NCBI GenBank assembly: GCA_029260495.1
Contig: JAJDDD010000011.1
Span: 1-48,218 of the forward strand
Direction of reading: 5' to 3'
Length of the DNA: 48,218 nt
Source of the DNA: Phycisphaerales bacterium
GTDB lineage: Bacteria > Planctomycetota > Phycisphaerae > Phycisphaerales > UBA1924
Below are positions 1 to 13,953 of the stretch, piece after piece; the stretch's first letter is position 1; every line of letters begins with the position of its first letter. Made by a program: the position numbers and the translations under genes. The notes under the pieces are model-generated. The model was not told the origin of the DNA, made no database searches, and saw nothing but the letters and a program-made list of their open reading frames with translations.

Positions 1-1
1 C

Positions 2-58
2 GTGCGTTTAAAATGCGCCGCCGCCCCCGCCGGCATTCTGATTGAGGGGGCCGCCTGA
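2..58 (+). CDS. C-terminal end of an upstream phage-like gene (partial)
   Basis: An open frame enters from the left edge and stops at TGA 56-58. It shows only 18 C-terminal residues, too few to identify a family. The stop overlaps the ATG of the next gene (ATGA), the same translational coupling seen along the whole tail cluster, so this is very probably a member of the same operon. In siphophage gene order the gene before an HK97-gp10-like protein is usually a head-tail connector or head-closure protein, but that is inference from position only. Confidence 0.6.
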   Translation: MRLKCAAAPAGILIEGAA

Positions 59-405
59 TGCCGGGCCAAGCAAAGTTTGACACCGCCCCGCTCACGGCGG
101 CATTGAATCGCCTGCGCCGCGAAGAGGTCACTGTGCGGCGCCGGACATTGGAGCTCTCGGCGGAGGCGATCGTGGGCGAGGCTCAGTTTGATGCGCCCGT
201 CGATACGGGCCTTCTGAAGTCTCAGCACATCGTCGATGACTCCAATCCTGACAAGATCCAGATCGGCGCCAACACCAAATACGCCGCTGCGGTGCATGAG
301 CGGCATCCAACCAAGAGCCAGTGGTTTTTAAAAGTCATGCTGCAGCGCGGCGCCAACATCATGCGCAAGGCGCTCACCAAGGCACTTGAGGAGTCGCACG
401 GATGA
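58..405 (+). CDS. HK97 gp10-like tail completion protein
   Basis: This 115-residue protein has the features of the HK97-gp10/tail-completion family: a helical N-terminus, the motif DAPVDTGLLKSQH at about residues 46-58, a following beta segment, NTKYAAAVHE at about 72-81 (family: Y-A-x-x-V-E-x-G), and an aromatic WFLKVML segment near the C-terminus. In phages of this type the protein sits at the head-tail junction and helps finish the neck or tail. The length is typical. The start ATG overlaps the previous stop and the stop overlaps the next ATG. Family assignment is from motif memory; function is inferred from family and position. Confidence 0.72.
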   Translation: MPGQAKFDTAPLTAALNRLRREEVTVRRRTLELSAEAIVGEAQFDAPVDTGLLKSQHIVDDSNPDKIQIGANTKYAAAVHERHPTKSQWFLKVMLQRGANIMRKALTKALEESHG

Positions 406-1259
406 GCACGATCACGATGGCGCCCAGCCTGATCGGTGTCTGCCAGCAGCTTGGCCGGTATTGGTCGGCCCGCACGCTTCTGGCCGGCGGTCTGGTCTTT
501 GTCGAGGAGCTTGACGCCACCCCGGGGCACATCTATGCGGCGCCGCTGCCCGATCAGGGGGCTCGGGCTGCGGGGGCTGCGTGTTCACTGACGGTGGGGC
601 CAGGGGCGGGTCAGCAGGCGGCTGAGCCCTTTGAAGTGATCCCGGTGAACGTGCGCATCGAGGCGGCGACTGTCAACGCCGCCATGCTTCTAGCCGCTGA
701 TCTTCATGCGGTCTTGAAGCCCGACCAGCGCATCGCGGATTTCGCAGCTGACAATGGCGGCGTCATCGGCGCTCCTTTACTGGGGCCCGGGTCTGAGGTT
801 GCGATGTGGCGCTTCATTCGGGCCGACATCATCGCCCCGGCTCAGGCGCTCACCATCGCCGCCAGTGAGGCCAGCGCCGCCGGCGGCCAGGCGGCTGTGG
901 CCATGACCGTCGCCTTCTACGTGATTCCGGTGACGGTGTTCAGCGCATTTGAGCTCTATGGCGATGATGCCGTGTTCACAGAGCTCGCCAATGTCAGCGT
1001 CGATATGTCAACCCTGACGCTTCGCTCTGAGACTGTCCCAGCCGCCGGCATTGTCACGACGCCCTTTGATCTTCGCACGCGAACCATTCAAGAGTTGCAC
1101 GACGACATCGACGCGCTGGCCGGGTGGGCAGTGTCGCCGGTGGACGCCAAGTGGGCGCCGGTGAGCGCCAGCGCCATGCTGATGACGGCCCAGGTGGGCA
1201 CGTTCGTTGACGTGCAGGGTGTCACGAAACAAATCTCACTGCTGGCGGCTCAGGGATAA
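402..1259 (+). CDS. Phage tail-cluster protein, tail terminator position
   Basis: A 285-residue protein I cannot assign firmly. It lies between a gp10-like gene and a probable tube protein, where siphophages encode the tail terminator. It is about twice the size of a usual terminator. The middle (about residues 75-110) has an alternating strand/helix pattern (IPVNVRIEA, then a helix ending in LHAVLKPDQRIADF) that fits part of a terminator-like fold. The C-terminal third (FYVIPVTVFSAFELYG onward) could be an added domain. There is no signal peptide or membrane segment. The start overlaps the previous gene by 4 bases (ATGA). 'Tail terminator-like' rests on position and weak pattern only. Confidence 0.5.
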   Translation: MSTITMAPSLIGVCQQLGRYWSARTLLAGGLVFVEELDATPGHIYAAPLPDQGARAAGAACSLTVGPGAGQQAAEPFEVIPVNVRIEAATVNAAMLLAADLHAVLKPDQRIADFAADNGGVIGAPLLGPGSEVAMWRFIRADIIAPAQALTIAASEASAAGGQAAVAMTVAFYVIPVTVFSAFELYGDDAVFTELANVSVDMSTLTLRSETVPAAGIVTTPFDLRTRTIQELHDDIDALAGWAVSPVDAKWAPVSASAMLMTAQVGTFVDVQGVTKQISLLAAQG

Positions 1260-1269
1260 AGGAACAACG

Positions 1270-1743
1270 ATGGCTGATCAGAACGACAAAACCAAAATCA
1301 TCATCGACATCTTTGAGGTGACCATCGGCGGCGATCGGGCGCCGTGGGAGGCCAAAGTCAGCTTCGGCCTGTTGCCTGACATTCACAAGGTGTCGGCCAT
1401 GCGCACCGGATCGAACGTGCTCACCAGCATTGTGCAGGGCCATCCGATCACGGGAGAGATCGAGTTCCTCCAGTATGGCGCCTATGTCCTTGAGACTCTG
1501 CTGGGGGTGGGCTCTTCGGCGCCGCGCGTGCAGCCGGCTCTGGGCGTTCAGATTCCAACCTTTGCGGTTGATCTTCATCCCAAGGGCGTCGCAGGCGATG
1601 CGCTTGACATCCATCTGCTGGCCACCGTCTTTGACGGCATGCGCATTGATTCTGACGGGCAGGGCGAGCTGCGGCCCGTCTTCCCCTTCCACTGTCAGGT
1701 GGACGCTTCCGAAAACGTCTACAGGGTTGGACCGACGCCATGA
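1270..1743 (+). CDS. Probable major tail (tube) protein
   Basis: I chose the ATG at 1270, which follows the purine-rich AAAGGAAC by a normal spacing, rather than the upstream in-frame start at 1207 that would overlap the previous gene deeply. The 157-residue product is beta-rich and acidic: an N-terminal KIIIDIFEVTIGG strand pair, then APWEAKVSFGLLPD and FDGMRIDSDGQGELRPVFPFHC, a pattern resembling tail-tube subunits. It sits directly before a chaperone-like gene and the tape measure, which is the canonical place of the tube protein. I see no diagnostic motif, so the call depends on gene order and size. Confidence 0.5.
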   Translation: MADQNDKTKIIIDIFEVTIGGDRAPWEAKVSFGLLPDIHKVSAMRTGSNVLTSIVQGHPITGEIEFLQYGAYVLETLLGVGSSAPRVQPALGVQIPTFAVDLHPKGVAGDALDIHLLATVFDGMRIDSDGQGELRPVFPFHCQVDASENVYRVGPTP

Positions 1744-2318
1744 GAATCGACCTTGACCATGCGAATGTGCCCTGGGACGAGACGATCGTGCTGCGCGGGT
1801 ATGAGATTCCGCTGGTCGCGCCCAGGGATGTTCCTGACACAACGCCGCTGTGCACGCGCGGGGCTCTCGGGCTGGCGATCCGTCTCTGGCGCCGCCTGGT
1901 CGGCAAGGTGTTGGGCGTCGATCTGCTGCATGAATATCAGAGCCAGTGCGCCGCCTTCATGCCGCCAGAGCTTCACCCGGTGGCCCGGCGCCTGACCGGG
2001 GCCGAGTGTCTGCAGGTGATCAGCGTGTACACAGCGCTGCAGCAGCAGTGGCTGTTGAAGTTCGCGGCGCTGGCCAACCCCGAGCCGGGGAGTCTGTCTG
2101 CTTCGGGGGGTGTGGGGGTTTCCGGGGGTGTGGCGGATTCCGGGGGTGTGGGGCAGGGATCACAGCTCTCGGGCGACGTGCATATCAACTCGCAGGGCCG
2201 TTCGATGACGAGGCTGGCTGTCGGGGCTCACCTGCCCGCATCGCTGGGTGGCGGCTTCTATGGACCGCAGAGCGCGAACGGATCGGCGGCGATCATGGAT
2301 GAGGAGCGAAAAGCCTGA
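1740..2318 (+). CDS. Tail assembly chaperone-like protein with glycine repeats
   Basis: A 192-residue protein overlapping the tube gene by 4 bases and the tape measure by 1 base. The first 120 residues are mainly helical. A short repeat follows (SGGVGVSGGVADSGGVG, about residues 121-137) encoded by G-rich DNA at 2104-2155, and then a polar tail. Siphophages place the tail assembly chaperone immediately before the tape measure, and its products help coat the tape measure before tube polymerisation. No family motif is recognised, so the role is inferred from position. The G-runs could support frameshifting, as in many chaperone genes, but this is untested. Confidence 0.45.
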   Translation: MRIDLDHANVPWDETIVLRGYEIPLVAPRDVPDTTPLCTRGALGLAIRLWRRLVGKVLGVDLLHEYQSQCAAFMPPELHPVARRLTGAECLQVISVYTALQQQWLLKFAALANPEPGSLSASGGVGVSGGVADSGGVGQGSQLSGDVHINSQGRSMTRLAVGAHLPASLGGGFYGPQSANGSAAIMDEERKA

Positions 2319-3379
2319 TGGCGTTTCTGATTGGATCATTCAATGCGATTCTCGGGATAGACAGCTCCGGCTATCGGAGGGGGATCATTGAATCCAATGC
2401 GCTCACGCAGGTCTTTGGCTCGACCTTCGCCACCTTCGTCACCAACCCGCTGCTGGGCGGGGCTCAACTCTTTGGCAATCTGGCCCGGGGCGCGATCAGC
2501 AGCGCCAAGGAGATTCTGGCGACCGCCGAAGCGGTGGATCGTCTGAGTCAGCAGACGGGCATCGCCGCCAGCACCATCGAAGCCCTGCGGGCGAAGTTTC
2601 GCCAGGCCGGCTTTGCCGAGGCTCAGGCGGACCTGAATCTGATTCAGTTCACCAGGCGGCTGGGAGAAGTGGAGTCCAAGGGCGGCGAGGCCGCAGCGGC
2701 GTTTGATCGGTTCAACATCAGTCTCGAAGGTGTGGGCTCAACTGATGAGGCTCTGAACAGAACCCTCGACGCCATTGATAATCTCGAAACGGCGACCGAG
2801 CGAACAGACGCCGCCATGCAGCTCTTCAGCGCTCGCGGCGGCTCGCAGCTCATCAACGCTGTCGGCGGCGGGAGCGAAGCGCTGCAGGAGCTGGTGGAGT
2901 TCATGGGGCGCCTCGGTCTGGTGACGCGCGATGATGGCGTGGCGGCGCTGGCCGCACTGAATACACAGGTCGGCGTGCTGCAGCAGGGCATTGAAGGCGT
3001 GAAGCGCACGGCCATTGCGGAGTTTCTCATCGGCATCGCAAGCGAGCTGACCGGCACAGAAGATGTCGTCGCCAATATTGCCGGTGAGCTTATCGATCGC
3101 ATCGCGCCGGTCAGCCGTGACATTGGTCAAACGGTCGGCGGCATACTCAACGACGTCAAAGAGATTCTTGAAGATGTTGAACGCACTTCCAACATCATTG
3201 ATGGTTTGTTCACCGGCGTTGCGATCGCGTCGGACAGCCTGGTCGGAAGTCCGCGTGCGATTAACACAATCCGACACATTGAGCGCCTCAATCAGCAGGC
3301 AGGAACCACATCCATTGATGACAGCCTTGGAGTTCCAATCCCCGGCGTCAACAGCGCTTCGCCGAGGATTGCGCGATGA
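2318..3379 (+). CDS. Short tail tape measure protein
   Basis: A 353-residue protein with classical tape-measure features. It begins with MAFLIGSFNAILGIDSSGY, then has a hydrophobic stretch (about 32-60) and a helical segment, ATAEAVDRLSQQTGIA (about 69-84), where 'LSxxTGxxxxxIxxL' is a hallmark of tape measure N-terminal domains. Long amphipathic helices rich in A, E and L follow. Tape measure length sets tail length at roughly 0.15 nm per residue (general rule), so this predicts a tail near 50 nm, short for a siphophage and in the range of gene transfer agents. The 1-base TGATG overlap with the chaperone gene indicates coupled translation. Confidence 0.75.
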   Translation: MAFLIGSFNAILGIDSSGYRRGIIESNALTQVFGSTFATFVTNPLLGGAQLFGNLARGAISSAKEILATAEAVDRLSQQTGIAASTIEALRAKFRQAGFAEAQADLNLIQFTRRLGEVESKGGEAAAAFDRFNISLEGVGSTDEALNRTLDAIDNLETATERTDAAMQLFSARGGSQLINAVGGGSEALQELVEFMGRLGLVTRDDGVAALAALNTQVGVLQQGIEGVKRTAIAEFLIGIASELTGTEDVVANIAGELIDRIAPVSRDIGQTVGGILNDVKEILEDVERTSNIIDGLFTGVAIASDSLVGSPRAINTIRHIERLNQQAGTTSIDDSLGVPIPGVNSASPRIAR

Positions 3380-4659
3380 CGCTCCAAACCGACATCAACG
3401 CGAAGGTGGGCTGGTTCACTGTCGAGGGCAGTGGGTTGTTTCCTGTCCTGTCCATTGATGAGTCCGTCGAGCGCGTCGCCAGCGATCAGAAGACGGGCGA
3501 GGCCATGACGCATCGCACCTGGACCATCGCCAGCTTCGCCGTCGCCGCCTCGGTCGCTGCGATCCCGGCGCTGCAGACGCAGCTCAGCGATGAGCTGGCC
3601 CGGCGCGGCCAGACGGTGCGCGTCTTCGACAAAAACGGCGTTGAGCGAGCCATGCTGGAGCCCGGCGCCGCAGGATCGCCCGACGCCATCGCCGGCTACC
3701 CCAGAGTCTCACTGCGCCTGATCGCCAGCGGCTCGGTGGGTCCGATTCAGAACTTTGAAGTCACCGCCGAGACCTTTGAGCCCATCATCCAGTCCGTCGA
3801 AGCCGGCTTCAACGTCGTCGAGCATACGTTCAACACCACGACTACATTTGATGAGGTCGGCGTTCAAACCTTCGAGCAGCGCGGCGAGGCTCGTGTCGGC
3901 GCCGGGCAATCGGGGCGCTCCTACATCGCCGCCACAGTGGTCCTGCTGCAGCAGGCCATCGCCAGCGGCAACAACGAAGTCGTCATCCAGCGCTTTGAAG
4001 AGGGACCGGACCTCACCTTCGTGCGCTACACCATCACGCGGCGCCAGCCGGCAAGCGGGGGCGGCGGGTTTGGCGAGCCCGATGTCACCGATGGCCAGGT
4101 GATTGATCGCACGCGCATCGAACGCGCGGGCCGGCGCGTGCGCAGCGTGTCGGGGTTCGCAGAGGGCGCCGGCGCCACCAACTTCGCTCTGGCTCAGCAG
4201 CCCAGCCCGGCGTCCAATGTTCTGATCAGGCAGGACATCTCTCAGCCGCGCGTGCCCGACGGGCGCGTGACCTTCACCTATGAAGCGCTCACCGGCATCA
4301 CCGGGCATCCGCTGTTTCCGCTGCTGACTGTGCTGAAGTTTGACGACAGCGTCTCGCCGGTGTCGGGCGGGCCCCAGATTGAGGCCATCGTCTATGACTT
4401 CGCGCTTCCCAAGCTCTTCACCGGGCCCGACCAGCCCTACATCTTTCAGCAGCGCACGTCTTTGGAGTTTTTGGGCGACTTCGCTGACGCGGTGATCCCG
4501 CCGCTGGCCGGCTTTGAGAACGCGCTGCAAAGAGAGCAGCGTTTTTCCCGCCAGACCCGCGACGGCGTGAAGCGTCTGGATGTGCAGACCATTTATATCT
4601 TCGCCCAGAAGCCCGCCGCCGATCCCATGCCGCTTGAAGTGGGGGAGGACTTCTCATGA
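3376..4659 (+). CDS. Phage tail-tip protein after the tape measure (distal-tail position)
   Basis: A 427-residue protein with no recognised motif. It overlaps its neighbours by 4 bases on both sides. Its position directly after the tape measure is where siphophages encode the distal tail protein that starts the tail tip. The sequence alternates beta strands and short loops, with no membrane segment. A glycine-rich hinge (about residue 228) divides it into two halves of similar size. The larger than usual length and lack of motif leave the exact role open; a baseplate component is inferred. Confidence 0.45.
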   Translation: MTLQTDINAKVGWFTVEGSGLFPVLSIDESVERVASDQKTGEAMTHRTWTIASFAVAASVAAIPALQTQLSDELARRGQTVRVFDKNGVERAMLEPGAAGSPDAIAGYPRVSLRLIASGSVGPIQNFEVTAETFEPIIQSVEAGFNVVEHTFNTTTTFDEVGVQTFEQRGEARVGAGQSGRSYIAATVVLLQQAIASGNNEVVIQRFEEGPDLTFVRYTITRRQPASGGGGFGEPDVTDGQVIDRTRIERAGRRVRSVSGFAEGAGATNFALAQQPSPASNVLIRQDISQPRVPDGRVTFTYEALTGITGHPLFPLLTVLKFDDSVSPVSGGPQIEAIVYDFALPKLFTGPDQPYIFQQRTSLEFLGDFADAVIPPLAGFENALQREQRFSRQTRDGVKRLDVQTIYIFAQKPAADPMPLEVGEDFS

Positions 4660-6998
4660 GCGCTCCCCAGACCATCACACTTCTCAGCGCTCTGAACTTT
4701 GGCTCGCGGCCTGTGACGCCCATCGGACCCATCACGCGCAGCGTGGGCTTTGCCCCCAGCGAGCTGCGCGTGCGCATTAAGCGCGAGGACTGGGAGGGCG
4801 CCGGCGGCGATCGCACCGAGCGCGGGCGCTGGAAGATCACCATCGGCGACACCGTCAGCATCTTCGATCTTGAAGACTATGTCCTGCGCCAGGTGACGGC
4901 GGTGACGCGAGGCCGCGATTATCCCGGCGGCGCCACGGTGCGGGCTCAGGAGTTTGAGCTGCTCTTTGAAACCGTCCCCGCGCTGTGGCGCGAAGGGCGC
5001 GGCGGCGTGCTGGCGCAGGGCGTTCTCAATCCGGTCGATGAAGACGGGGTGGCGCTGTCGCTGGCGGACAATCCGCAGCGCAAGGAAAACACGCAGCTCG
5101 CCACTCTTTGCCTGGGGCGCCTGGACAACGCCTTCAACCTTCCTCCGGCGTCGCTTGATCTTCTCGCGCCGCCCGGGCCGCTTGACTGGTCCAACGCCCG
5201 GGCCCCGCAGGAGCTCGCCGATCTGCTCAAGCGAACATCGCATGATCTGGCCATTCACAACAATGGCCGCATCAACATCTTCAAGCAGTTTGTGGCCGGC
5301 GATCCGCTCATCCTCCCGCCGGCCATCGCCGACGCCGCCGCTCCTGATGGGATCAATCTGCAGCCGGCCCTGCGGGCCAGCACACTGCTCATCACCAGCG
5401 GGCGCTCGCGGTCGATCGTTCTGAAGCAGCTCACCGCCGATGACATTGAGTGGGTCTGGTTTGACGATCGCCTGGGCCAGTGGCTCAACACGACTGAGAC
5501 CGAAACGCTCTACCCCGGCGAAACCACGCCCACCGATCTGGGCGCCCTGCGCCTCGGTCCCGGCAAGACCAACGAGGAGAAGAACGCCTTCTCTCGTCTG
5601 TTCCGGGCGGCGCGTTTGATCGGCGCCAATGCCGGGGCCCGCTTCGCGGATCTTCCCCACAAGGCGGCCATCGGCGGCTTTGAAGTGTCGGGGGTCTCGG
5701 CGGTGGCGATCTCTGACGCTGCCTTCATCACCGGGCCGGGGCAGTTCAACAACGCGCCGGGCCTTGAGCGCGTCGAAAGCGTCAATGTGGATGTGAACGC
5801 CGGCGTGATCTCATTCAACAAACTGATGGTCAAGGTGGACTCCGCCTCCGGGAATCTGGTGGGCTCGGGCGTGGGCGGCTTCGCCGAGCTGCGCGAGCTG
5901 ACCACCAATGAGCTGACGCTGATCGTCGCGCTGGAGTCTGACTCGGGCGATCTGCGCACCGATCATTATGTGGCGGCCTTCAATCTCGACGCCGGCGGGC
6001 AGGTGCAGCGCCTGACCAACGAGGGCGAGATCACACTCGCCATCAATGACGCCTCGACGGTGGCGGTGGACGGTCCCTTCCTTGTGCGCGTGTTGCGCGA
6101 TGAGGGCGCAGGAACGCTGACGCCCCTCAATGACGCCGGGCTTGACGCAGCGGCCCTTTCACTCGCCAAAGCTCGCATCAGCGCCGAAGAGCTGGAGTCG
6201 GGCGTTCTGGAGCTGGCGGGTCTGGTGGAGGTTGAGCCCGGTGATTTTAATGGCGCCGCCACCAGCGTGACCTATGACGTTGAGCGCAAGCGCACACTGA
6301 TTTCGATCGGGTCGTCGGATCTGCCCGCCTCGATCTTTGACGCCATCGCCGCCGGGGCTCGCCATTCGGTCGTCACGGGTCTGGCCCGTTTCAACTTGTC
6401 GGGATCATCGACGGGGCAATCTGACGTGACGGCCTCCGATCAGGGCTCCACCGCGCTGGGCCGGGCCCTTGCGGCTCGGCGCGGGGCGGAGCGAGCCTCG
6501 ACGCCGAGGATCACGCCCTCGATCACGCCGCGTCCGATTCCAGATTTGACGCCGCCGCGCTGGCTGGCTCGTCTGAAAAACCCATCGCCGCTCTCGGGCA
6601 ATCGGTGGACCTATGAGTGGGACGAGGTTGTGGCCCGAGGGCCCGGCGTTTTCGAGACGGTCGTGGGGGCGCGCGATCACACGACGCACGGACTGGCGTA
6701 TGTCGGCGCCGAAGCCTTCAACACCGGCGCCGGCGTCGAAGGTGACGGAATCGATCACGACGCCCTGCCCGGCGACTTCGCCATGCAGCCACTGGGTGAT
6801 CAGGTGGTCGAGATGATCGGACCGGTGGGCGATGCGGCGGATTCATGGTGTGTGATTCTCGGCCCTGTCAATAACGTCGACGGCGCCTGTGAAGATCCGG
6901 CGCCGCTGCAGCAGGTGACGGAGCCGCCGCCCCCGGGCGGAACCATCAGCGGCGCTGATGAAGTGATGGTGTTCGGACAACTGGCAGGAGCTGCGTGA
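4656..6998 (+). CDS. Large tail-tip/baseplate hub-like protein
   Basis: At 780 residues this is the largest protein of the module. It overlaps the previous gene by 4 bases (ATGA) and the next by 1 base (TGATG). The N-terminal 150 residues look like a beta-rich structural domain. The middle includes WVWFDDRLGQWLNT, and the region after about residue 615 is proline-rich (TPRITPSITPRPIP), a probable linker before a C-terminal domain with WTYEWDEV. Position after the distal-tail candidate suggests the hub or tail-associated protein. I see no peptidoglycan hydrolase signature, so a lytic role cannot be claimed. Confidence 0.45.
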   Translation: MSAPQTITLLSALNFGSRPVTPIGPITRSVGFAPSELRVRIKREDWEGAGGDRTERGRWKITIGDTVSIFDLEDYVLRQVTAVTRGRDYPGGATVRAQEFELLFETVPALWREGRGGVLAQGVLNPVDEDGVALSLADNPQRKENTQLATLCLGRLDNAFNLPPASLDLLAPPGPLDWSNARAPQELADLLKRTSHDLAIHNNGRINIFKQFVAGDPLILPPAIADAAAPDGINLQPALRASTLLITSGRSRSIVLKQLTADDIEWVWFDDRLGQWLNTTETETLYPGETTPTDLGALRLGPGKTNEEKNAFSRLFRAARLIGANAGARFADLPHKAAIGGFEVSGVSAVAISDAAFITGPGQFNNAPGLERVESVNVDVNAGVISFNKLMVKVDSASGNLVGSGVGGFAELRELTTNELTLIVALESDSGDLRTDHYVAAFNLDAGGQVQRLTNEGEITLAINDASTVAVDGPFLVRVLRDEGAGTLTPLNDAGLDAAALSLAKARISAEELESGVLELAGLVEVEPGDFNGAATSVTYDVERKRTLISIGSSDLPASIFDAIAAGARHSVVTGLARFNLSGSSTGQSDVTASDQGSTALGRALAARRGAERASTPRITPSITPRPIPDLTPPRWLARLKNPSPLSGNRWTYEWDEVVARGPGVFETVVGARDHTTHGLAYVGAEAFNTGAGVEGDGIDHDALPGDFAMQPLGDQVVEMIGPVGDAADSWCVILGPVNNVDGACEDPAPLQQVTEPPPPGGTISGADEVMVFGQLAGAA

Positions 6999-7333
6999 TG
7001 TCAAGTGAACTGAGGCACATCTCGGCGACGCCTGCTCAAGGCGTTCTGCATGAACTCTACCGCGTGCCGGAGGGTTGCAATGCGCTGCTGAGCTCGATCG
7101 AAGTCTGCAACCTGTCAAACGCCGGCGATGACGAGATTGATATCGCCGTCAGCAAGGGCGAGGCTGGCGAGGTCGTCCTGCAGGACTTTGTCAGGCGCAG
7201 TGGCGTCCTGTTCGCCGGAGCGCATGACCGGGCGCTGAGCGGCAAGACGCTCGGCTCCTGTGATGCGGTGTTCATTCAATCGGCGACCGGGCAGACGTCT
7301 TTCAGCGCCAATATTCAGGAGATCAAGGGGTGA
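6998..7333 (+). CDS. Small phage accessory protein
   Basis: A 111-residue beta-rich protein. I use the ATG at 6998, which overlaps the preceding stop by one base, rather than the GTG just before it. The sequence has repeated short strands (LLSSIEVCNLSNAG, DEIDIAVSKG, VVLQDF), like small head- or tail-decoration proteins and like bacterial 'stabilising' beta sandwiches. No family is recognised. A product acting at the tail tip is possible given the position among late structural genes. Confidence 0.5.
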   Translation: MSSELRHISATPAQGVLHELYRVPEGCNALLSSIEVCNLSNAGDDEIDIAVSKGEAGEVVLQDFVRRSGVLFAGAHDRALSGKTLGSCDAVFIQSATGQTSFSANIQEIKG

Positions 7334-7339
7334 TGCTCA

Positions 7340-7663
7340 ATGGACACGTCAATCATTCGAGGCGTCTTTGCGAGCGTCGATCTGAACGCGCTGGGATCGA
7401 CGGCCTCTGTCGACTGCTCGCATCGATCTGGCGTCGCCTCGGTTCATGTGCGCAGCCCGGCGGACACCGCCCAGATTCAAATCGAGGTGTCGATCGACAC
7501 CGGGCAGACGTTCACTCCGGCGCCTGGGGTTTCACTGCTCACCGAGTCGGCGCCGCTGGTGAGTTTTTCCATCGCCAACTACGACGCCTTTCGCGTCACG
7601 GTGACAACGGTTCAGGGAGCGCCCGCGACCAGCGACATCGCCTGGCGGCATTCGTCGCAGTAG
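7340..7663 (+). CDS. Small phage accessory beta-sandwich-like protein
   Basis: A 107-residue protein whose pattern (ASVHVRSPADTAQIQIEVSIDTGQ, then a sequence ending in SFSIANYDAFRVTV) suggests a single immunoglobulin- or carbohydrate-module-like beta sandwich. The start ATG at 7340 is preceded by AAGGGG. It follows the previous gene by six bases and its product has similar size and style, so the two may be related decoration proteins. Function unknown. Confidence 0.5.
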   Translation: MDTSIIRGVFASVDLNALGSTASVDCSHRSGVASVHVRSPADTAQIQIEVSIDTGQTFTPAPGVSLLTESAPLVSFSIANYDAFRVTVTTVQGAPATSDIAWRHSSQ

Positions 7664-7701
7664 CGATCGTGGGCGCCGGCGCCGCTTCAGGAGGGACGGC
7701 C

Positions 7702-8403
7702 ATGAGCCTCAAGCGCGGGTGTTGTTGCGACACTGCAATCCCTGACACCTGTTGTTTCGATAACAGTTTTTGTAAATGTGCGCATCACACGCCCGGAGTC
7801 TCGACCACACTTGTGTTGGATCTGAATATTGACACCAGCGCTGTCCAGTGCTGCGACGGCGTGCCTACTTCAATCGACAGCTTCACAATCAACGTTTCTG
7901 TTCCAATACCCGTCTCGGGCAATTCATGTAATTCGGGTTATGCCATAACCCAACTGGTTGTGGACTCCCGGCCTGTGGTGATTCCAGAGACGCCATGCCT
8001 GCCGCAAAGAAATGCAACGTACGAGACCACCATCAACGCGGTCAACTTCAGACCCAGCATAAATCTTTTCAACTTCCTCTTCCAGACCTCAACCAGTGTA
8101 TTTCCGATCGGTGGAGGTGTGTCAGGCGGCATCAGTTTTCAAAAGAATGCGTCTGGATGGTGCGGCGCATCGATGAGCTTTTCTGACGCCAGTGGGTTTG
8201 CGTGTCCGTCTCAGGGATTCTCTCTGCGGGTCACAAACACATGGAATGTGACAGCCGCCGTAAATCCGCAGTGTCTATTTTGTGCTGGTCAATCAGGCAT
8301 CACACTGCCCACACCCGCGCAGGTCGCCGATGTGCGCATGGGTAAAAAACCCTCCGGGTGCGGAAGCTGCGGCGACGAACTCACTGGCGGGGTGACGCTA
8401 TGA
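7702..8403 (+). CDS. Cysteine-rich phage-module protein
   Basis: I start at ATG 7702, behind CAGGAGGGACGG, and not at the far upstream in-frame start, which would overlap two other genes. The 233-residue product has 17 cysteines by my count: a CCC, CC, CxC and HH cluster in the first 30 residues (C7-9, C17-18, C24, C26), several in the body, and C-x2-C pairs near the C-terminus (PQCLFCAG, SGCGSCG). The middle is beta-rich. The DNA is visibly lower in GC than its neighbours, which suggests a separate origin. It overlaps the next, also cysteine-rich, gene by 4 bases. Function unknown; a disulfide- or metal-stabilised appendage is a guess. Confidence 0.55.
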   Translation: MSLKRGCCCDTAIPDTCCFDNSFCKCAHHTPGVSTTLVLDLNIDTSAVQCCDGVPTSIDSFTINVSVPIPVSGNSCNSGYAITQLVVDSRPVVIPETPCLPQRNATYETTINAVNFRPSINLFNFLFQTSTSVFPIGGGVSGGISFQKNASGWCGASMSFSDASGFACPSQGFSLRVTNTWNVTAAVNPQCLFCAGQSGITLPTPAQVADVRMGKKPSGCGSCGDELTGGVTL

Positions 8404-8774
8404 GCGCCTCCAATGTCGCCTGGGTCGGCGCCAGGGGCGCCCGCACATTCGCGCTGGCCGTGATTCAAGGCGATGTCGCCGGCGCCCGGGCAATCGCCGC
8501 GCGTCGATCCGCCTGTCTGAACTGCGACGCCCGCACGCGCGCGAGGGCGCCCGGCGCCAGTGAGCCAAGCGACTGGTGCGGCGATCCCTTCGTCGAGACG
8601 GAAACCTCGTGCGGATGTCTGCTCGCCGGGAAGATCGCGGTGGCCAGCGAAGAATGCCCGCGGCGCATCTGGTTGGCGGTCAGAAGAGCAAGGGGCCGCT
8701 GGGCCCGGCGCGTGACGCTGCTCGCCGAGCAGATGATGAACACACAACTCAAGGAGGCCACGGATGGCGATTAA
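8400..8774 (+). CDS. Small cysteine-motif phage protein
   Basis: A 124-residue protein translationally coupled (ATGA) to the preceding cysteine-rich gene. Residues 38-90 carry C-x2-C, then WCG, then SCGC followed by K, then ECPRRIW. The arrangement C-x2-C ... C-x-C ... K ... CPxxxW recurs, to my recollection, in small proteins of phage tail regions and looks like a zinc or metal knuckle. The C-terminus is basic and helical. Its job is not known. Conserved coupling with the upstream Cys-rich protein would support a joint role. Confidence 0.5.
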   Translation: MSASNVAWVGARGARTFALAVIQGDVAGARAIAARRSACLNCDARTRARAPGASEPSDWCGDPFVETETSCGCLLAGKIAVASEECPRRIWLAVRRARGRWARRVTLLAEQMMNTQLKEATDGD

Positions 8775-9567
8775 AACATATGCAGGCAACAGCGACGGCG
8801 CCCTCGACAACACATCCAACTACGCCGGCGGCGTTCTTCCTGTCTCTACGGACAGTCTGATTATTGAGAACACCATTCCCATCACCGCGCAGCTGGATTC
8901 ACTCGGCGCTGTCGCGCTCGATGATCTTGATGTGTACCAGACCTCGGTGGCTTCGATCGGAGCTGCGATTGAGCCTCTTGAGGTTGATGTCACAGGGCGG
9001 CTGCTCTACGACGGACGCGGGCCCGAGGCGTGGTTCAAGGGGGATATCGCGCGGGCCATCATCAAGAATACGGGCACCGGGACGGTGCATCTTGACACCG
9101 GCGCCGGCGAGCAGCTTGGGCCCATTGATGTGATCGGCTCGGCCCGCGTGAAGATCGAAGATGGGGCTGACATCAACGGCGACATCATCGTGGGCAGAGG
9201 GGCGACGCTTGAGATCGGGGCGGGGGTGACCTTCAGCGCTGGCGACCTGATCATGCGCGGCGGCACGGTGACCGCTTCTACGCTGCCGGCGAACATTCGC
9301 GGCAACTCGGGGAAGGTGATCGCTGCGGCTGGGGCGGGGGCCAGCGGGACGGTTGACCTTGACGGACTCACGCTTGAAGTTCGGGGCACAGGCGGGGCGT
9401 TTGGGGTGATCAACAACTCGCAGCCTGGGGTGAACGGGCTGATCGTTGATGGGCAGGGGGTGACCATCACAACGCTCAACACCTATTCAGGGGCGGGCGA
9501 CAACCTCGCCAGCAAGGGGTCGCAGGTCACGGTGAGCACCAGCAACACACTTCCCGATGACAGTTGA
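8764..9567 (+). CDS. Beta-solenoid-like tail fibre or surface protein
   Basis: A 267-residue protein with an excellent ribosome-binding site (AAGGAGG, 8752-8758) inside the previous gene. The N-terminus MAIKTYAGNSDGALDN is followed by many short, regularly spaced beta segments with G, D, N and V (for example DGADINGDIIVGRGATLEIGAG), the pattern of right-handed beta-helix or solenoid proteins such as phage fibres and autotransporter passengers. It is the last gene of the first operon and is followed at once by an intrinsic terminator, the usual place for a receptor-binding or fibre gene. Fibre function is inferred. Confidence 0.55.
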   Translation: MAIKTYAGNSDGALDNTSNYAGGVLPVSTDSLIIENTIPITAQLDSLGAVALDDLDVYQTSVASIGAAIEPLEVDVTGRLLYDGRGPEAWFKGDIARAIIKNTGTGTVHLDTGAGEQLGPIDVIGSARVKIEDGADINGDIIVGRGATLEIGAGVTFSAGDLIMRGGTVTASTLPANIRGNSGKVIAAAGAGASGTVDLDGLTLEVRGTGGAFGVINNSQPGVNGLIVDGQGVTITTLNTYSGAGDNLASKGSQVTVSTSNTLPDDS

Positions 9568-9670: not shown

Positions 9671-9712
9671 GCGTTCCCGTTTTGTCTGCGCGTGTTCCCG
9701 TTTTGCTCGCGC
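9671..9712 (+). repeat. Tandem 21-bp repeat upstream of the regulator gene
   Basis: Two head-to-tail 21-bp units (9671-9691 and 9692-9712) share the exact 12-mer GTTCCCGTTTTG at 9673 and 9694. The spacing is two helical turns, so a bound protein would see both copies on one face of the helix. An imperfect inverted repeat GCCCATAG/CTGTGGGC (9637-9644 and 9665-9672) abuts the first copy. The site is just before the ribosome-binding site of the tandem-HTH gene, which suggests an operator, possibly autoregulatory. Confidence 0.55.
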
Positions 9713-9736: not shown

Positions 9737-10156
9737 ATGGATTGCGCTGTCGCGAGTCAGCATGATGGGCTTGATTTGAGAAGGCGAAGAACGCGCGAGA
9801 TGGCGGAGGTGCTCGTCGGGCGGGCGGAATGGCTTGGCGATGAAGATCGCGCGATCGTTTCCGCGGTCTACCAGGACGGGATTTCCGCCAAGGATCTCGC
9901 CAACATCCGCGGGCAGAGCCCCCGGTGTGTCAGACGGCGGATTCACGCCCTTGTCCAGCGCATCACCAGCGACGAGTTCGCGTTTGTGCTGCGAGCCCGC
10001 GATCAGTGGCCCCCAACCCGCCGGCGCGTCGCGACCGCGTGCGTGCTTCGGGGCATGTCGCTGCGGGAGGCGGGCGACAAGCTCGGGCTGTCACTGCACG
10101 CGGTGCGCAAACACATGGACGCTGTGCGTGCGCTGCACAGCGCGGAGTTGCGATGA
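9737..10156 (+). CDS. Tandem helix-turn-helix regulator of the terminase operon
   Basis: A 139-residue basic protein with a good ribosome-binding site (CAGGAG). It contains two HTH-like segments: AIVSAVYQDGISAKDLANIRG with the recognition helix SPRCVRRRIHAL (about 40-73), which resembles sigma-70 region 4, and VATACVLRGMSLREAGDKLG with SLHAVRKHMDAV (about 97-130). No sigma region 2 is present, so it is not a complete sigma factor. It is the first gene of an operon coupled by ATGA overlap to the ABC-GNAT gene and then the terminase genes. A late-gene activator or small-terminase-like DNA-recognition role is plausible; regulation of its own operon through the tandem repeats is inferred. Confidence 0.6.
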   Translation: MDCAVASQHDGLDLRRRRTREMAEVLVGRAEWLGDEDRAIVSAVYQDGISAKDLANIRGQSPRCVRRRIHALVQRITSDEFAFVLRARDQWPPTRRRVATACVLRGMSLREAGDKLGLSLHAVRKHMDAVRALHSAELR

Positions 10157-11592
10157 CGAGATCCACAACACCGCCTGCTGCAGATGTTATCGAGGTGGCG
10201 CCCGCGGTCCGGCGACCATTAACGCCAAGCCGGCGCGCCTGTGAGGCTGCCTGCGCATTCGGGTTGAATCTGGAGCGAGAGTTCGGCAGCTTCGGCGGGG
10301 CTGATGAGAATCAAAGCGTGCGCATTCATGTGGCTGGCGGGCGGGTGGTTCTGGCGCTGGGGCCGAGCGGGTCGGGGAAGTCAACCTTCTTGAAAGGCGC
10401 GGCCGACGCGCTGGAGGAGAAGGGATGGCGATGCGTGCATCCGATGCGCCTGCGTCTGCGCGAGGCGCCGTTGGTTGATCTCTTCGCTGGCTCGCTTGAA
10501 GACGGGCTGCGATGTTTGGGGGCGGCGGGATTGGCAGAAGCAGCGATCTTCGTGAAAAGGCCGGGCGAGCTTTCTGACGGCGAGCGACACCGACTGCGCC
10601 TGGCGCTGGCGCTCGATCGGGCGACGCGCTCCAAGAGCAAGTGCGCTTTGATTCTGGATGAGTTCGGAGCAGTGCTCGACCGGGAGACAGCCCGCAGCGT
10701 GGCGCACACCATGAGACGCTCTCTCGCGAAGATGGAGCGCGTGTGCGCACTCGTCGCGACAGCGCATGACGACATTAAAGATGTGCTCTCACCGGACACG
10801 GTCATTCAGTTTTCCCTGGCGGGAGGGGCGCAGGTTGACTCCGGCGCACAGAATCGATCGAAGATAAAGCCGCCTGCGCGCCTGCGCGATGATGTGGCGC
10901 TCCGGCCCGGATCACTTCGTGAGCATCGTTCTTTGAGCGCCTGGCATTACCGGGCGGGCGATCCTGCGACGTGCGCGTATGTGCTGATTGCTGAGGCGTG
11001 CGCACGCGGGGAGATTGTTGGGTCATTGGTGGTTTCGATGCCGACACTGCATGGAGCGTGGCGAAAGCTGGCCTGGCCGGGACGGTACAACATTGCTGAT
11101 AAAAGATTGGCGATTGGGCGGTTGAATGAAGAGGTGCGGTGCATCTCACGGGTTGTTGTTGATCCGCGTTGGCGCGGGCGGGGGCTGGCGCAGCGGCTGG
11201 TGGCGACGTATCTGGCGCATCCACTTACAGTGCATACAGAAGCTGTTGCGGCGATGGGTCGCGTGAACGGGTTCTTTGAGCGAGCGGGGATGACCGCCTA
11301 CCGGTTGCCGACGGGGAAGACGGATTCCATATTTCTTGATGCGATGGAGCATGCGGGGGTGGAGGCGTGGCGCCTGGCGACGCCAAACGCGGCGATGACG
11401 CGGGCAAGAGCGCACGGGGGAGAGACGTTTGTAAAGAAAGCGGTGGAGGAGTGGGCGAGTCGGAGGCTGCGCACGGGGCGGGCCCATGGGATGACTTTGG
11501 AAGCGTTATTTGAATTGGCGTGCGCATCAGCGGGGGCGGCCCTGGTTGGGTATGCGCACACTGCGGAGCAGAGGGAGCTCGCCGTTGGGTAG
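10153..11592 (+). CDS. ABC-type ATPase fused to GNAT acetyltransferase (COG2401-like)
   Basis: A 479-residue two-domain protein. The N-terminal ATPase has Walker A GPSGSGKST (70-78), an ABC signature-like LSDGE (140-144), Walker B CALILDE (164-170) and the switch histidine in ATAHDD (205). It has no membrane segments and no adjacent permease. The C-terminal half has the GNAT acetyl-CoA motif A, RVVVDPRWRGRGLAQRLV (333-350). This architecture matches what I recall as COG2401, 'ABC-type ATPase fused to a predicted acetyltransferase', known in archaea, bacteria and phages but without an established function. The start ATG overlaps the regulator stop. Its place immediately before the terminase genes suggests a role linked to phage DNA or its packaging; that is inference. 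Confidence 0.8.
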   Translation: MTRSTTPPAADVIEVAPAVRRPLTPSRRACEAACAFGLNLEREFGSFGGADENQSVRIHVAGGRVVLALGPSGSGKSTFLKGAADALEEKGWRCVHPMRLRLREAPLVDLFAGSLEDGLRCLGAAGLAEAAIFVKRPGELSDGERHRLRLALALDRATRSKSKCALILDEFGAVLDRETARSVAHTMRRSLAKMERVCALVATAHDDIKDVLSPDTVIQFSLAGGAQVDSGAQNRSKIKPPARLRDDVALRPGSLREHRSLSAWHYRAGDPATCAYVLIAEACARGEIVGSLVVSMPTLHGAWRKLAWPGRYNIADKRLAIGRLNEEVRCISRVVVDPRWRGRGLAQRLVATYLAHPLTVHTEAVAAMGRVNGFFERAGMTAYRLPTGKTDSIFLDAMEHAGVEAWRLATPNAAMTRARAHGGETFVKKAVEEWASRRLRTGRAHGMTLEALFELACASAGAALVGYAHTAEQRELAVG

Positions 11593-11651
11593 GGGCTTAA
11601 GGAAATAAGAAAATCGCAGCGCGGGAAGAGATGGCGTGGAGATGTGCTGTG

Positions 11652-11885
11652 ATGAAGAGTTTGGAACACAGGAAGAGGACGGCGAGTTCTTCGCCGGCGC
11701 CAGCGCCGGAGGAGGGAGAACTTCCACATGCGCTGACGTTCTATCTGACGCACAGCCAGCGTGAGGCTGTGTTGGCGCGGCTGAAGGAGTTTGACCGGGC
11801 CCGTGCGCGGGCCTTGTGTCGGGCGCTGGGCGTACAAGTGGAAAACACGGCGCGTGGGACGAGGGGAAAGGGCGGTGCTGGATGA
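11652..11885 (+). CDS. Small orphan protein between ABC-GNAT and terminase
   Basis: A 77-residue protein. I use ATG 11652, preceded by GGAG at a normal distance; an in-frame ATG at 11631 would add seven residues. The product has a polar N-terminus and a helical middle (HALTFYLTHSQREAVLARLKEF) with a hydrophobic 'YLTHSQREAVL' patch, then a basic C-terminus, the look of a small DNA-binding or adaptor protein. Its stop overlaps the terminase small-subunit start (ATGA), so it belongs to the packaging operon. No family recognised. Confidence 0.55.
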   Translation: MKSLEHRKRTASSSPAPAPEEGELPHALTFYLTHSQREAVLARLKEFDRARARALCRALGVQVENTARGTRGKGGAG

Positions 11886-12463
11886 CTCAACCACCAATGA
11901 ACGGACGGGCAGGAAGCGGGTCGGCGGGCGATGAGACCGTTAAACGGCGGATTTGTGCGCCTGTGAATGCGCACAGCGAATCGCTGGACGAGGAGCTGGT
12001 CGAGGCGGTGTATCGCGGGCGACTTGGGCTACTCAGTTTGGCGGATCGATGCGGGGTGACGCTTGAAGAACTGGCGCGGCGTGCGTCGCGCTCTGAGATT
12101 GTGGAGGCGCTGGGTGAGATTCAGAAGCTGACCAATGCGCGAACGTCGATCGTGGTGAGCAAGGCGAGAACGGCGGCGGCGAGGTCTTTGCTTGAGCTGG
12201 CGCAGGATCGGGAGGCGAAGGAAACAGCGCGGAAGGCGTGCATGGATTTGCTCGGGCTGCGCGATGTGGCGCTGGATGAGGAGCGTGCGGAGGGGAATCG
12301 TCAAGAGGTTGGAGAGGAGGCGATGAGCGCGATTCATCGGCTGCTTGAACGGGTGGGAGCTGCGACGGCCGGTGAAGACAGCAGCGAGTGCGGCGCAACC
12401 AAGCCCAAGACAATGCCCGCGCGCCTCGAAAAGGTAGAAGAGATTGTGCAGGCTGCACCATGA
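11882..12463 (+). CDS. Probable terminase small subunit
   Basis: A 193-residue protein coupled by ATGA overlaps to the genes on both sides. It has an HTH-like segment near residues 48-70 (LSLADRCGVTLEELARRASRSEIVEAL), then long helices with many charged residues, and a C-terminal low-complexity tail. The position directly before the large terminase gene, the size, and the HTH-plus-helical layout fit a small terminase that recognises DNA for packaging. Sequence similarity to a named family is not evident, so the call is largely positional. Confidence 0.65.
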   Translation: MTQPPMNGRAGSGSAGDETVKRRICAPVNAHSESLDEELVEAVYRGRLGLLSLADRCGVTLEELARRASRSEIVEALGEIQKLTNARTSIVVSKARTAAARSLLELAQDREAKETARKACMDLLGLRDVALDEERAEGNRQEVGEEAMSAIHRLLERVGAATAGEDSSECGATKPKTMPARLEKVEEIVQAAP

Positions 12464-13953
12464 GCGTGCAGGTGTTGTCGGCTCTTGGGGCGGGTGATTT
12501 ATCCGATGACGAACGGCGGGCGCTGCGCGACGCGCGGCCTGCGTCGGCGAATGAACTTGATGCCTGGTTGCGGCTTGTGGTCGGTGTGCGCGTGCCTCGC
12601 GTGGCGCTGGCGCCCGGGAGCTCCCCGCCGTTTGCGTATTTGGAGCACGCGTTCCTTGAGCCCGAGGAAGCGGCACGGGGTGAGGTTTCGCAGCGTGATT
12701 GTGTGGTGTGGGCGTGCCGGGGAGGAGGGAAGACGTTCCTCGGCGCGACAGCGACGATGCTTGATCTTGTCTTCAAGCCGGGGATAGAGGTATTGATTCT
12801 GGGCGGGTCGCTGGAGCAGTCGCAGCGGATGCACGGACACTTGCGTTGGTTGTTTCGCAAGTCGCCCTTGGCAGCGTTGGTGGTGAAGCTGACGGAGCGG
12901 AAGGTGGAGCTTGTGAATGGTTCGTGCGCGCGGGTGTTGGCGCAGTCACAGACATCGGTGCGCGGGGCGAGGCCGCAAAAGCTGCGGTGTGACGAGGTGG
13001 AGCTCTTTGATTCGCGTGTGTGGGAGGCGGCGCAGCTTGTGACACGATCAAAGCGATGCGGAGATGTGTTTGCGCATGGCGCAATCGAAGTGTTCAGCAC
13101 GATGCATGAGCCGGCGGGGTTGATGGCGCGAATAGCAGCCGATGAAAGGAGGCGGCTATTTCGGTGGGGGATTGTTGACGTTCTTGAAAAGTGCGCGCCG
13201 GCGCGGGCATGTGAGCCTTGTCCATTGGTTGCCGAATGTGATGGTCGGGCGAAAGTTGCGCGGGGGCATGTTGGGATTGATGATGCGATCCGGATGAAAT
13301 CGCGGGCGAGCGAGGGAGCTTGGGCGGCGGAGATGCTGTGTGAGAGGCCGCGCATGGACCAGTTGGTGTATCCGGAGTTTGATGAGGGCGCGCATGTGGC
13401 GGATTTTGATGTTGGCGAGGTAGAGCGGGAGGGTTGGCGTTTTGTCGGCGGAATGGACTTTGGGATCGCGGGCGAAACGGTTGTGCTCTGGGCGGGGGTT
13501 GGGACAGATGGGACGCTGCGGATTGTGGATGAACGCAGTGTGAGCGGGGCGCGGCTTGGTGAACATATTGAGGCGATTCAGGGGGCGCGGTGGCCGGGGA
13601 TGGAGTGGATCGGCGTTGATCCTGCGGGTCGGCAGCGGAGCCACCAGACGGGGATCAGCGCGGTGACAGCGATGAGGCGGGCGGGTTTAAGCGTGCGCGA
13701 TCGGCGGGTTGGAGTTGTTGAAGGGATTGAGATGGTGCGGGCGAGGTTGAATCCGGCGGTTGGAGGGGCGCAGCTCGTGATTCACGCGCGGTGCGCGCGG
13801 TTGATTGAAGCGCTGTCGAAGTATCGGTGGGCGGATGACGCGCGGGGGGCGCCCTTGAAAGATGGCGCGGATCATGCAGCAGACGCGCTGCGGTATTTGA
13901 TTGTGAACCTGGATAGCGCGGCGCGGGAAGCGCGGGTGGTGAGTTATTTTTGA
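12460..13953 (+). CDS. Phage terminase large subunit
   Basis: A 497-residue packaging motor. The ATPase has Walker A ACRGGGKTF (85-93) and a Walker B region KLRCDEVELF (174-183) with the catalytic DE. The nuclease domain begins with GGMDFGIAGE (330-339) and ends with the metal-binding segment DHAADALRYLI (from 471). This is the ATPase-nuclease order of tailed-phage terminases, which translocate and cut DNA at the procapsid portal. A cluster of four cysteines (245, 251, 254, 260) between the two domains is unusual and could be a small zinc site. It is the last gene of the operon. In most phages the portal gene follows, but here host-type genes on the opposite strand begin after 240 bases. Confidence 0.92.
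   Translation: MSVQVLSALGAGDLSDDERRALRDARPASANELDAWLRLVVGVRVPRVALAPGSSPPFAYLEHAFLEPEEAARGEVSQRDCVVWACRGGGKTFLGATATMLDLVFKPGIEVLILGGSLEQSQRMHGHLRWLFRKSPLAALVVKLTERKVELVNGSCARVLAQSQTSVRGARPQKLRCDEVELFDSRVWEAAQLVTRSKRCGDVFAHGAIEVFSTMHEPAGLMARIAADERRRLFRWGIVDVLEKCAPARACEPCPLVAECDGRAKVARGHVGIDDAIRMKSRASEGAWAAEMLCERPRMDQLVYPEFDEGAHVADFDVGEVEREGWRFVGGMDFGIAGETVVLWAGVGTDGTLRIVDERSVSGARLGEHIEAIQGARWPGMEWIGVDPAGRQRSHQTGISAVTAMRRAGLSVRDRRVGVVEGIEMVRARLNPAVGGAQLVIHARCARLIEALSKYRWADDARGAPLKDGADHAADALRYLIVNLDSAAREARVVSYF

Follow-up and report, generated by a model that had tools for sequence, protein, structure and literature searches.

A 48,218 nt stretch of DNA from a Phycisphaerales bacterium (contig JAJDDD010000011.1 of assembly GCA_029260495.1, named C11 in our set and analyzed from its first base; hereafter, the window) contains an operon in the order helix-turn-helix (HTH) regulator, ABC ATPase-GNAT fusion (ABC-GNAT), 84 aa protein, TerS-like protein and large terminase subunit (TerL), all on the forward strand. 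This operon is one half of a two-locus capsid and packaging element that is retained by most of one bacterial family, that of the window. The fusion gene (positions 10153–11592) codes for a protein of 479 aa, with the ABC ATPase at approximately residues 8–235 and the GNAT domain at 244–479, in agreement with a preliminary description of this DNA that had pointed out the motifs GPSGSGKST, LSDGE, CALILDE and RWRGRGLA; all of them are present, and both Pfam domains exceed their cut-offs (ABC_tran, PF00005, 25.8 bits for a cut-off of 25; Acetyltransf_1, PF00583, 25.1 bits for a cut-off of 20.7). In PHROGs, the protein matches phrog_11143 (1e-18, of unknown function) and phrog_293 (2.8e-14, annotated as 'ABC transporter'), and its GNAT part matches phrog_886 (1.2e-07). 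The preceding gene (9737–10156) codes for a regulator with two HTH domains resembling sigma-70 region 4 (PF08281, 4.3e-07; PF04545, 1.7e-06), and its stop codon overlaps the ATG of the fusion gene as ATGA; the translational coupling asserted in the preliminary description is plausible given this overlap.

Alignment of the window protein with 61 relatives (62 sequences, with identity as low as 19%) revealed that the Walker A residues G70, S72, G73, G75 and K76, residues S141 and G143 of the ABC signature, and D169 and the catalytic E170 of Walker B are invariant, as are H265, Y266 and R333 of the GNAT domain, and that G344 of GNAT motif A occurs in at least 90% of the sequences. The acetyl-CoA motif, on whose retention, together with that of the catalytic glutamate, the first proposal of a function depended, is thus kept across the family. 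The pair H265-Y266 and R333 are shared from Phycisphaerae to the compared proteins from Gordonia, Rhodococcus, Salmonella and Pseudomonas phages. The AlphaFold model of ABC-GNAT has two confident domains (pLDDT 87.8); a Foldseek search with the full-length model returned mostly ABC cassettes and, therefore, the GNAT part was folded (pLDDT 93.5) and searched separately. Its solved GNAT matches have Z-scores of 11.8–12.9 among the 50 matches listed, and a sequence-profile search found no solved relative of this domain at E < 0.02. The best match in the viral structure library was a 'GNAT' protein from Leptospira phage LE4 (aligned over 407 columns at E 1.9e-15, with a TM-score of 0.32/0.40). The nearest solved structures of the ABC half are transporter cassettes, with HrtBA scoring highest (Z 18.5), a likeness that carries no functional information. 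By its Walker A, signature, Walker B glutamate and structure matches, the ABC half belongs to the ABC ATPase superfamily; the other half is assigned to the GNAT superfamily by its fold and motif A, from which acyl transfer is predicted. ABC-GNAT was also considered as a known anti-phage defence protein and rejected, because its PADLOC matches, to mad3 and mad8, cover it only in part; for the rest of the operon, PADLOC returned one partial CARF match for the HTH protein and no match for the other three proteins.

Downstream of ABC-GNAT, the preliminary description had placed small and large terminase genes. The latter is confirmed: TerL (12460–13953) matches phrog_2 (4.9e-20), and its Walker A residues G88, G90, K91 and T92, as well as D178, E179 and D333, are conserved in 24 of 24 sequences, with D387, D471, H472 and D475 conserved in 23 of 24, the remaining sequence being cut by a contig end. 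The former is named by position: the TerS-like protein (193 aa; 11882–12463) gave no significant match and no HTH match in protein-family searches, including Pfam and PHROGs, in which the 84 aa protein (11631–11885) also lacked significant matches. In a set of 26 packaging loci chosen by place, TerL lies downstream in 25, and the other one ends at a contig edge; tblastn detected the 84 aa protein in 10 of the 26, so that it is retained in only part of the family, and the TerS-like protein in eight. The TerS-like gene is missing in some packaging loci; in two of them (L044 and L053), only about 130 and 32 bp, respectively, separate ABC-GNAT from TerL. ABC and GNAT are adjacent separate genes in families f2, f5, f6 and part of f1, and a ParB gene was found by tblastn in six loci from families f4–f6.

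The arrangement was also evident in an independent set of genomes, made of the best 80 of 181 ABC-GNAT loci and leaving out carriers outside the order without the capsid (e.g., those of family f32), with counts referred to the loci having enough sequence. TerL occurs on the same strand and within 3.5 kb of ABC-GNAT in 58 of 66 testable relatives, so that the link to packaging holds, and the HTH regulator profile is found upstream in 64 of the 70 with at least 2 kb of upstream sequence. The two activities are fused in 46 of the 80 loci, and profile tests detected ParB in 12. According to their record titles, these loci are mostly from Phycisphaerales, Phycisphaerae or Planctomycetota, with few others (e.g., Cyanobacteria and Steroidobacter). 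The conserved operon is, then, HTH, ABC-GNAT (as a single gene or a pair), ParB and the TerS-like gene, each in some cases, and TerL. That homologs should mostly lie beside packaging genes, as the preliminary description anticipated, agrees with these 58 of 66 genome loci and with at least 37 of 80 viral loci, the latter being a lower bound.

A gene for an S24-type repressor diverges from the operon in 23 of the 26 packaging loci and in 48 of the 70 relatives of the independent set. In L044, this repressor contains HTH and Peptidase_S24 domains (the latter at 3.6e-18), and the alignment of 25 repressors shows the Ala-Gly cleavage pair in 24, the serine in 24 and the lysine in 23. LexA and CI proteins undergo RecA-stimulated self-cleavage, and the conservation of the cleavage pair and of the Ser/Lys residues implies that the S24 repressor would do the same.

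The other half of the element is a head cluster with an SU10-type capsid and an SPP1-like portal. Among 21 head loci chosen by capsid match, the order portal, capsid and a protein of 212–233 aa is identical in all 21, with a scaffold-size gene between portal and capsid in 20; examples are the matches of L103 (portal, PF05133, 4.9e-14; capsid, PF17236, 4.6e-90) and L095 (portal, phrog_64, 1.1e-25; capsid, phrog_1328, 2.9e-78). In all 12 head loci from f1, the family of the window, the 212–233 aa gene is followed by two more, of about 140 and 130 aa, while four of the five loci from f5 and f6 carry fibre- or tail-like genes of 390, 287, 690 and 550 aa, with a family match for the 287 aa product only. 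When both loci are on the same contig, the distance between them ranges from approximately 8 kb in G275 up to 300 kb in G290; elsewhere, including the genome of the window, they are on different contigs. In G608, from another order of the same class, both clusters are on one strand and 5–6 kb apart, with amtB-, glnB- and transposase-like genes, as judged by sequence reading, between them. The flanks of the head loci are locally syntenic: again by sequence reading, a phosphoglucosamine-mutase-like gene occurs in six loci from f1, f5 and f6; four f6 loci have a sigma-54-regulator-like gene, and an M16-peptidase-like gene is present in four loci from f2 and one from f1. A scan of 111 flanking open reading frames (ORFs) from 20 loci (10 of the 26 packaging and 10 of the 21 head loci) matched 36 PHROG families; the 25 of these that were listed include no integration or replication genes and no family of integrases, terminases, portals or capsids.

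Several other head genes were considered as partners of the operon and discarded. HK97-type genes were infrequent in 30 chosen genomes (PF05065 in three; PF04860 in seven, five over the cut-off), and the PF25209 capsid cluster of G007, G040 and G059 belongs to ordinary prophages, being present in 94 of 301 genomes and often in several copies. In these three genomes (L072, L073 and L074) it forms a highly conserved lambda-type head cluster, with portal (PF05136), capsid (PF25209), cement and head-tail joining genes, and there is no match to the TerL of the operon in the 20 kb of sequence covered. At the end of the SU10-type head cluster, positions 12906–13821 of L103 and their equivalents encode two proteins, first a short coiled-coil one containing a single hydrophobic stretch and then one resembling a lipoprotein, which could be a spanin-like lysis pair. 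Separately, in L307 (G437) the GNAT gene and the head cluster are about 1.2 kb apart and the ABC match is on another contig; this arrangement is a different split of the same gene set.

The distribution of both loci was examined in 301 genomes of the order, 118 from the family of the window and 183 from others, taking as strong ABC-GNAT matches those with E ≤ 1e-15 (29 weaker ones were dropped) and as capsids of the type of the element those matching PF17236 at E < 1e-78 (24 weaker ones were dropped). PF17236 was found in 159 of the 301 genomes and in none of 14 control genomes; the capsid type, in 135, with a single PF17236 match in 126 of them. Strong ABC-GNAT matches occurred in 155 genomes, corresponding to 107/118 in the family of the window and 48/183 in the others, and the capsid type followed the same pattern (95/118 and 40/183, respectively), with both together in 88 of the 118. 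Overall, 122 of the 301 genomes contained both loci and 133 contained neither (odds ratio 38; Fisher p 2e-37, uncorrected for relatedness); considering any PF17236 match instead, 138 genomes had both, 17 only ABC-GNAT and 21 only the capsid family. Each of the two loci is mostly present once per genome.

Across the phylum, ABC-GNAT was found at E ≤ 1e-15 in 104 of 392 genomes and the capsid family in 55. All 10 carriers from the same class have PF17236, nine of them at E < 1e-77, and so do all 13 carriers from family f30, 12 of them at E < 1e-77. Raising the ABC-GNAT threshold to E ≤ 1e-30 leaves 45 carriers outside the order, of which 25 have the capsid. The f32 genomes, many of them complete, contain ABC and GNAT genes and no SU10-type capsid; in f32, therefore, ABC-GNAT belongs to something else or works with an unrecognised capsid.

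To compare inheritance we correlated distance matrices derived from the trees. TerL and capsid distances agree closely (r 0.84, n 14, p 0.0005), as do those of portal and TerL (r 0.84, n 13), and the comparison with RpoB gave r values of 0.76 for TerL (n 23, p 0.0005), 0.72 for the capsid (n 17, p 0.0005), 0.71 for GNAT (n 23) and 0.35 for the S24 repressor (n 24). Within f1, r was 0.88 for TerL and capsid (n 13) and 0.64 for RpoB and TerL (n 19). In three genomes of one genus, dN/dS values were 0.11–0.25 for TerL, 0.23–0.33 for ABC, 0.23–0.34 for GNAT and 0.15 for the capsid (one pair), compared to 0.07–0.10 for RpoB.

The results above suggest an interpretation that we consider evenly balanced between being right and being wrong: that Phycisphaerales have domesticated an element resembling a gene transfer agent (GTA), and that ABC-GNAT forms part of its DNA-packaging operon. 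The assignment derives from genomic signs, the element being known here from its genes. What appears to be new is an operon, usually placed behind an S24 repressor, that occurs in most of the family of the window together with an SU10-type capsid and portal cluster located elsewhere. GTAs (RcGTA, CcGTA, BaGTA and others) have been reviewed (PMC11841831) and are likewise chromosomal, common in a clade, distributed in more than one locus and under low dN/dS. Possible further likenesses are inheritance as one copy (here, mostly one), the lack of visible integration genes (here, among the PHROG families listed) and a TerS without a detected DNA-binding domain (here, a putative TerS designated by position). 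As in GTAs, a core structural cluster, here the head cluster, is accompanied by genes at another locus, here the packaging operon. In contrast to these GTAs, ours has an SU10-type capsid, an SPP1-type portal, ABC-GNAT and an S24 repressor, shows no clear set of tail genes, belongs to another phylum and is represented by genes only. No GTA from Phycisphaerae was found in the accessible text of the literature searched, a search with subscription papers and preprints outside its scope.

Under this GTA-like reading, DNA damage would lead to self-cleavage of the S24 repressor and switch on the operon, and TerL would then fill SU10-like capsids with host DNA because sequence-specific recognition by TerS would be weak or lost. 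More speculatively, the ABC ATPase might use ATP to open or to dimerise on DNA, and the GNAT domain might then transfer an acyl group to a base, or to the packaging machinery, on the DNA about to be packaged; such an enzymatic step would resemble that of Mom, or that of TmcA in putting an ATPase beside a nucleic-acid acyltransferase. A broader version, covering at least Phycisphaerae plus f30 within Planctomycetota, is possible and rather doubtful: an ancient, independently domesticated GTA with an SU10-type capsid, an SPP1-type portal, an operon under SOS control and an ABC-GNAT that marks packaged DNA.

Various observations weigh against the GTA-like reading. The genomes of the order sample are mostly metagenome assemblies, and in them 33 of the 155 strong ABC-GNAT carriers lack the capsid type and 13 of the 135 genomes with the capsid type lack ABC-GNAT; the operon is lacking in three quarters of the order outside the family of the window, and 20 of the 45 carriers outside the order lack the capsid, 16 of them from f32. 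No tail genes were recognised in the head clusters of f1, the portal of G012 is truncated, with only its C-terminal part found (L092), and there are flanking ORFs with matches to tail-fibre or baseplate families, one member for each family. The upstream regions of HTH/S24 and portal from 14 genomes showed no common operator: the longest word shared by the two regions was matched by at least 42 of 200 controls in 13 of the 14 genomes, and by 16 of 200 in G290. The trees are in part discordant with RpoB, with G290 displaced in those of both TerL and capsid; the correlation between RpoB and ABC is just 0.40 (n 24), and S24 is the least congruent with the other trees (r 0.00–0.40). Since the mutual agreement of TerL and capsid exceeds that of either with RpoB, and G290 is shifted jointly in both, occasional joint horizontal transfer is possible.

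The better mutual congruence of TerL and capsid would also be expected if the operon belonged to an ordinary, horizontally moving prophage lineage very common in Phycisphaerales, with ABC-GNAT as its DNA-modification gene. The same gene block is present in free phages and phage-plasmids, as described below, and prophages do exist in these genomes, one of them touching the operon in the window. Nevertheless, we consider this explanation improbable: operon and head cluster are apart in the chromosome, with mostly unshared flanks and close to one copy per genome, the scan of flanking ORFs found none of the phage families named above among those listed, and the prophage-type PF25209 capsid of the same order is, by contrast, patchy and often multi-copy. 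We view as equally improbable that the system is domesticated for another job, such as killing or a response to DNA damage, or that it is an old prophage in slow decay. The f1 head clusters without recognised tail genes, the truncated portal of G012 and the carriers without the capsid, both inside and outside the order, would fit either possibility, but decay is opposed by the low dN/dS of TerL, ABC, GNAT and capsid and by the conservation of the motor and nuclease residues of TerL. If the GTA-like reading is correct, the element would represent a GTA gene set different from those described and recurring in the phylum, and such domestication would be commoner than thought; it would give an abundant and poorly tractable bacterial group a means of exchanging genes. 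It would also offer a chromosomal, non-infectious setting for finding the role of phage ABC-GNAT proteins, which are so far unexplained: an operon of this kind should be inducible, and its product could be sought in packaged DNA.

The idea that ABC-GNAT acylates DNA is already known: acyl modification of a DNA base was predicted for phage proteins described as 'GNAT coupled with ABC ATPase' (Iyer et al., cited by PMC7824862), which we infer to be relatives of the window protein. Both share the two domains, carried by a single gene or by two neighbouring ones, the phage origin and a link to DNA handling, but the window gene is in a chromosomal operon common to most of a family, lacks a ParB neighbour, and its operon is usually beside an S24 repressor. 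We found relatives in SSU5, ZY21, NHagos and viral contigs, and another in Escherichia phage PhiR41_1, for which an E. coli K-12 host is listed. In Gordonia phage NHagos the order is ParB, ABC-GNAT, another gene and terminase; in Pseudomonas ZY21 it is ParB, ParB, ABC, a small gene, GNAT and then terminase, and SSU5 has the same order spanning both record ends. Jace has a ParB-like gene in front and the terminase small subunit about 3 kb downstream. Taking 80 of at least 224 viral contigs, where relatives were found with an alignment query and none was confirmed with a single protein, we counted as matches to profiles, those for TerL and ParB grown iteratively from few phage proteins, GNAT in at least 77, ParB within 4 kb in at least 41, and TerL within 7 kb in at least 37.

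In favour of DNA acylation, structural comparisons placed Mu Mom (PDB 8bv8), a DNA-modifying GNAT, second among the solved structures for the GNAT model (Z 12.7, root mean square deviation 3.1 over 141 residues). Mom has the GNAT fold in common with the window protein, but neither an ABC domain nor sequence-profile similarity to it. The DNA-acylation idea is weakened by the fact that this score is tied with those of dozens of other GNATs, such as RimI- and NatA-like enzymes and small-molecule acetyltransferases, as well as by the proximity of the ABC half to transporter cassettes; likewise, membership in the Mom family by sequence was rejected, since the hhalign profile comparison against the single Mu Mom sequence gave a probability of 0.5%. 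The tRNA cytidine acetyltransferase TmcA (PDB 2zpa), whose structure was the third Foldseek match of the GNAT model (E 1.1e-4), also couples an ATPase and a GNAT in one protein; its ATPase is helicase-like, that of the window protein is of the ABC type, and the structural match covers only the GNAT model. COG2401 is an ABC ATPase with a predicted acetyltransferase domain, with the same two-domain make-up and likened here by its description; the term was not found in the literature searched.

The link of ABC-GNAT with DNA handling, as the preliminary description had put forward on the basis of its phage setting, is supported as an indirect deduction; what changes is the setting, because the operon is part of a family-wide element and not of the adjoining prophage. 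Since a kin-directed GTA would need less protection from restriction than a phage, marking the DNA or the motor for packaging would be an alternative role. A rather doubtful option, compatible with a GTA-like element, is that the substrate of ABC-GNAT is not DNA but a protein (TerL, the portal or one of the host), in which case the ABC domain would act as an ATP-dependent switch. The GNAT domain is structurally tied with protein N-acetyltransferases such as RimI and NatA, and phage GNATs acting on proteins are known (e.g., Rac); conversely, the ParB neighbours seen in the viral contigs and in the 12 genome loci point to DNA, and no dedicated protein partner was seen besides TerL.

The tail genes upstream of the operon (window positions 1–9567) belong to a different prophage that lies directly upstream of the HTH gene and is not part of the operon. 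Positions 58–9567 contain genes for a gp10-like protein and a tape measure protein (phrog_9483, 6.2e-15) and further ORFs, with no PHROG match for 8 of the 10 ORFs scanned. The end of contig C2 (8998 bp; L112, genome G000) shares 141 identical bases with the start of the window, and this contig codes for the C-terminus of another TerL (phrog_5909, 9.1e-19), as well as for three head genes: a portal (phrog_533, 4.6e-16), a minor head protein (phrog_4611) and another SU10-like capsid, the second and more distant one (phrog_1328, 7.6e-27). From this content and the overlap it follows that positions 1–9567 are the right-hand portion of another prophage, which has a terminase of its own. Its tape measure protein was discarded as a marker of the element, being present in just 11 of 121 genomes. 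At 0.633, the operon has the same GC content as the adjoining part of the prophage, above the 0.593 of the rest of the window.

The best relative in the same genome of the repressor usually adjacent to HTH is at C17:85780–86622, with a methyltransferase-like ORF, by sequence reading, on the contig-end side of the gene. G024 has relatives of these prophage genes, also with a TerL of their own, that end beside an S24 gene, and its HTH gene is on a different contig, close to the end. Within the limits imposed by the contig breaks at this gap, these arrangements suggest two prophage insertions between S24 and HTH, in two families and in opposite orientations (L083, L084 and L113 in G024; L086–L089 in G000). 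Positions 9671–9705 of the window contain the word GTTCCCGTTTTG twice before the HTH gene, a repeat not found before this gene in the other genomes compared. A direct and an inverted near-copy are located around positions 827 and 1966 of L089, at the end of C17, and the repeat could possibly be a prophage end repeat or an operator.

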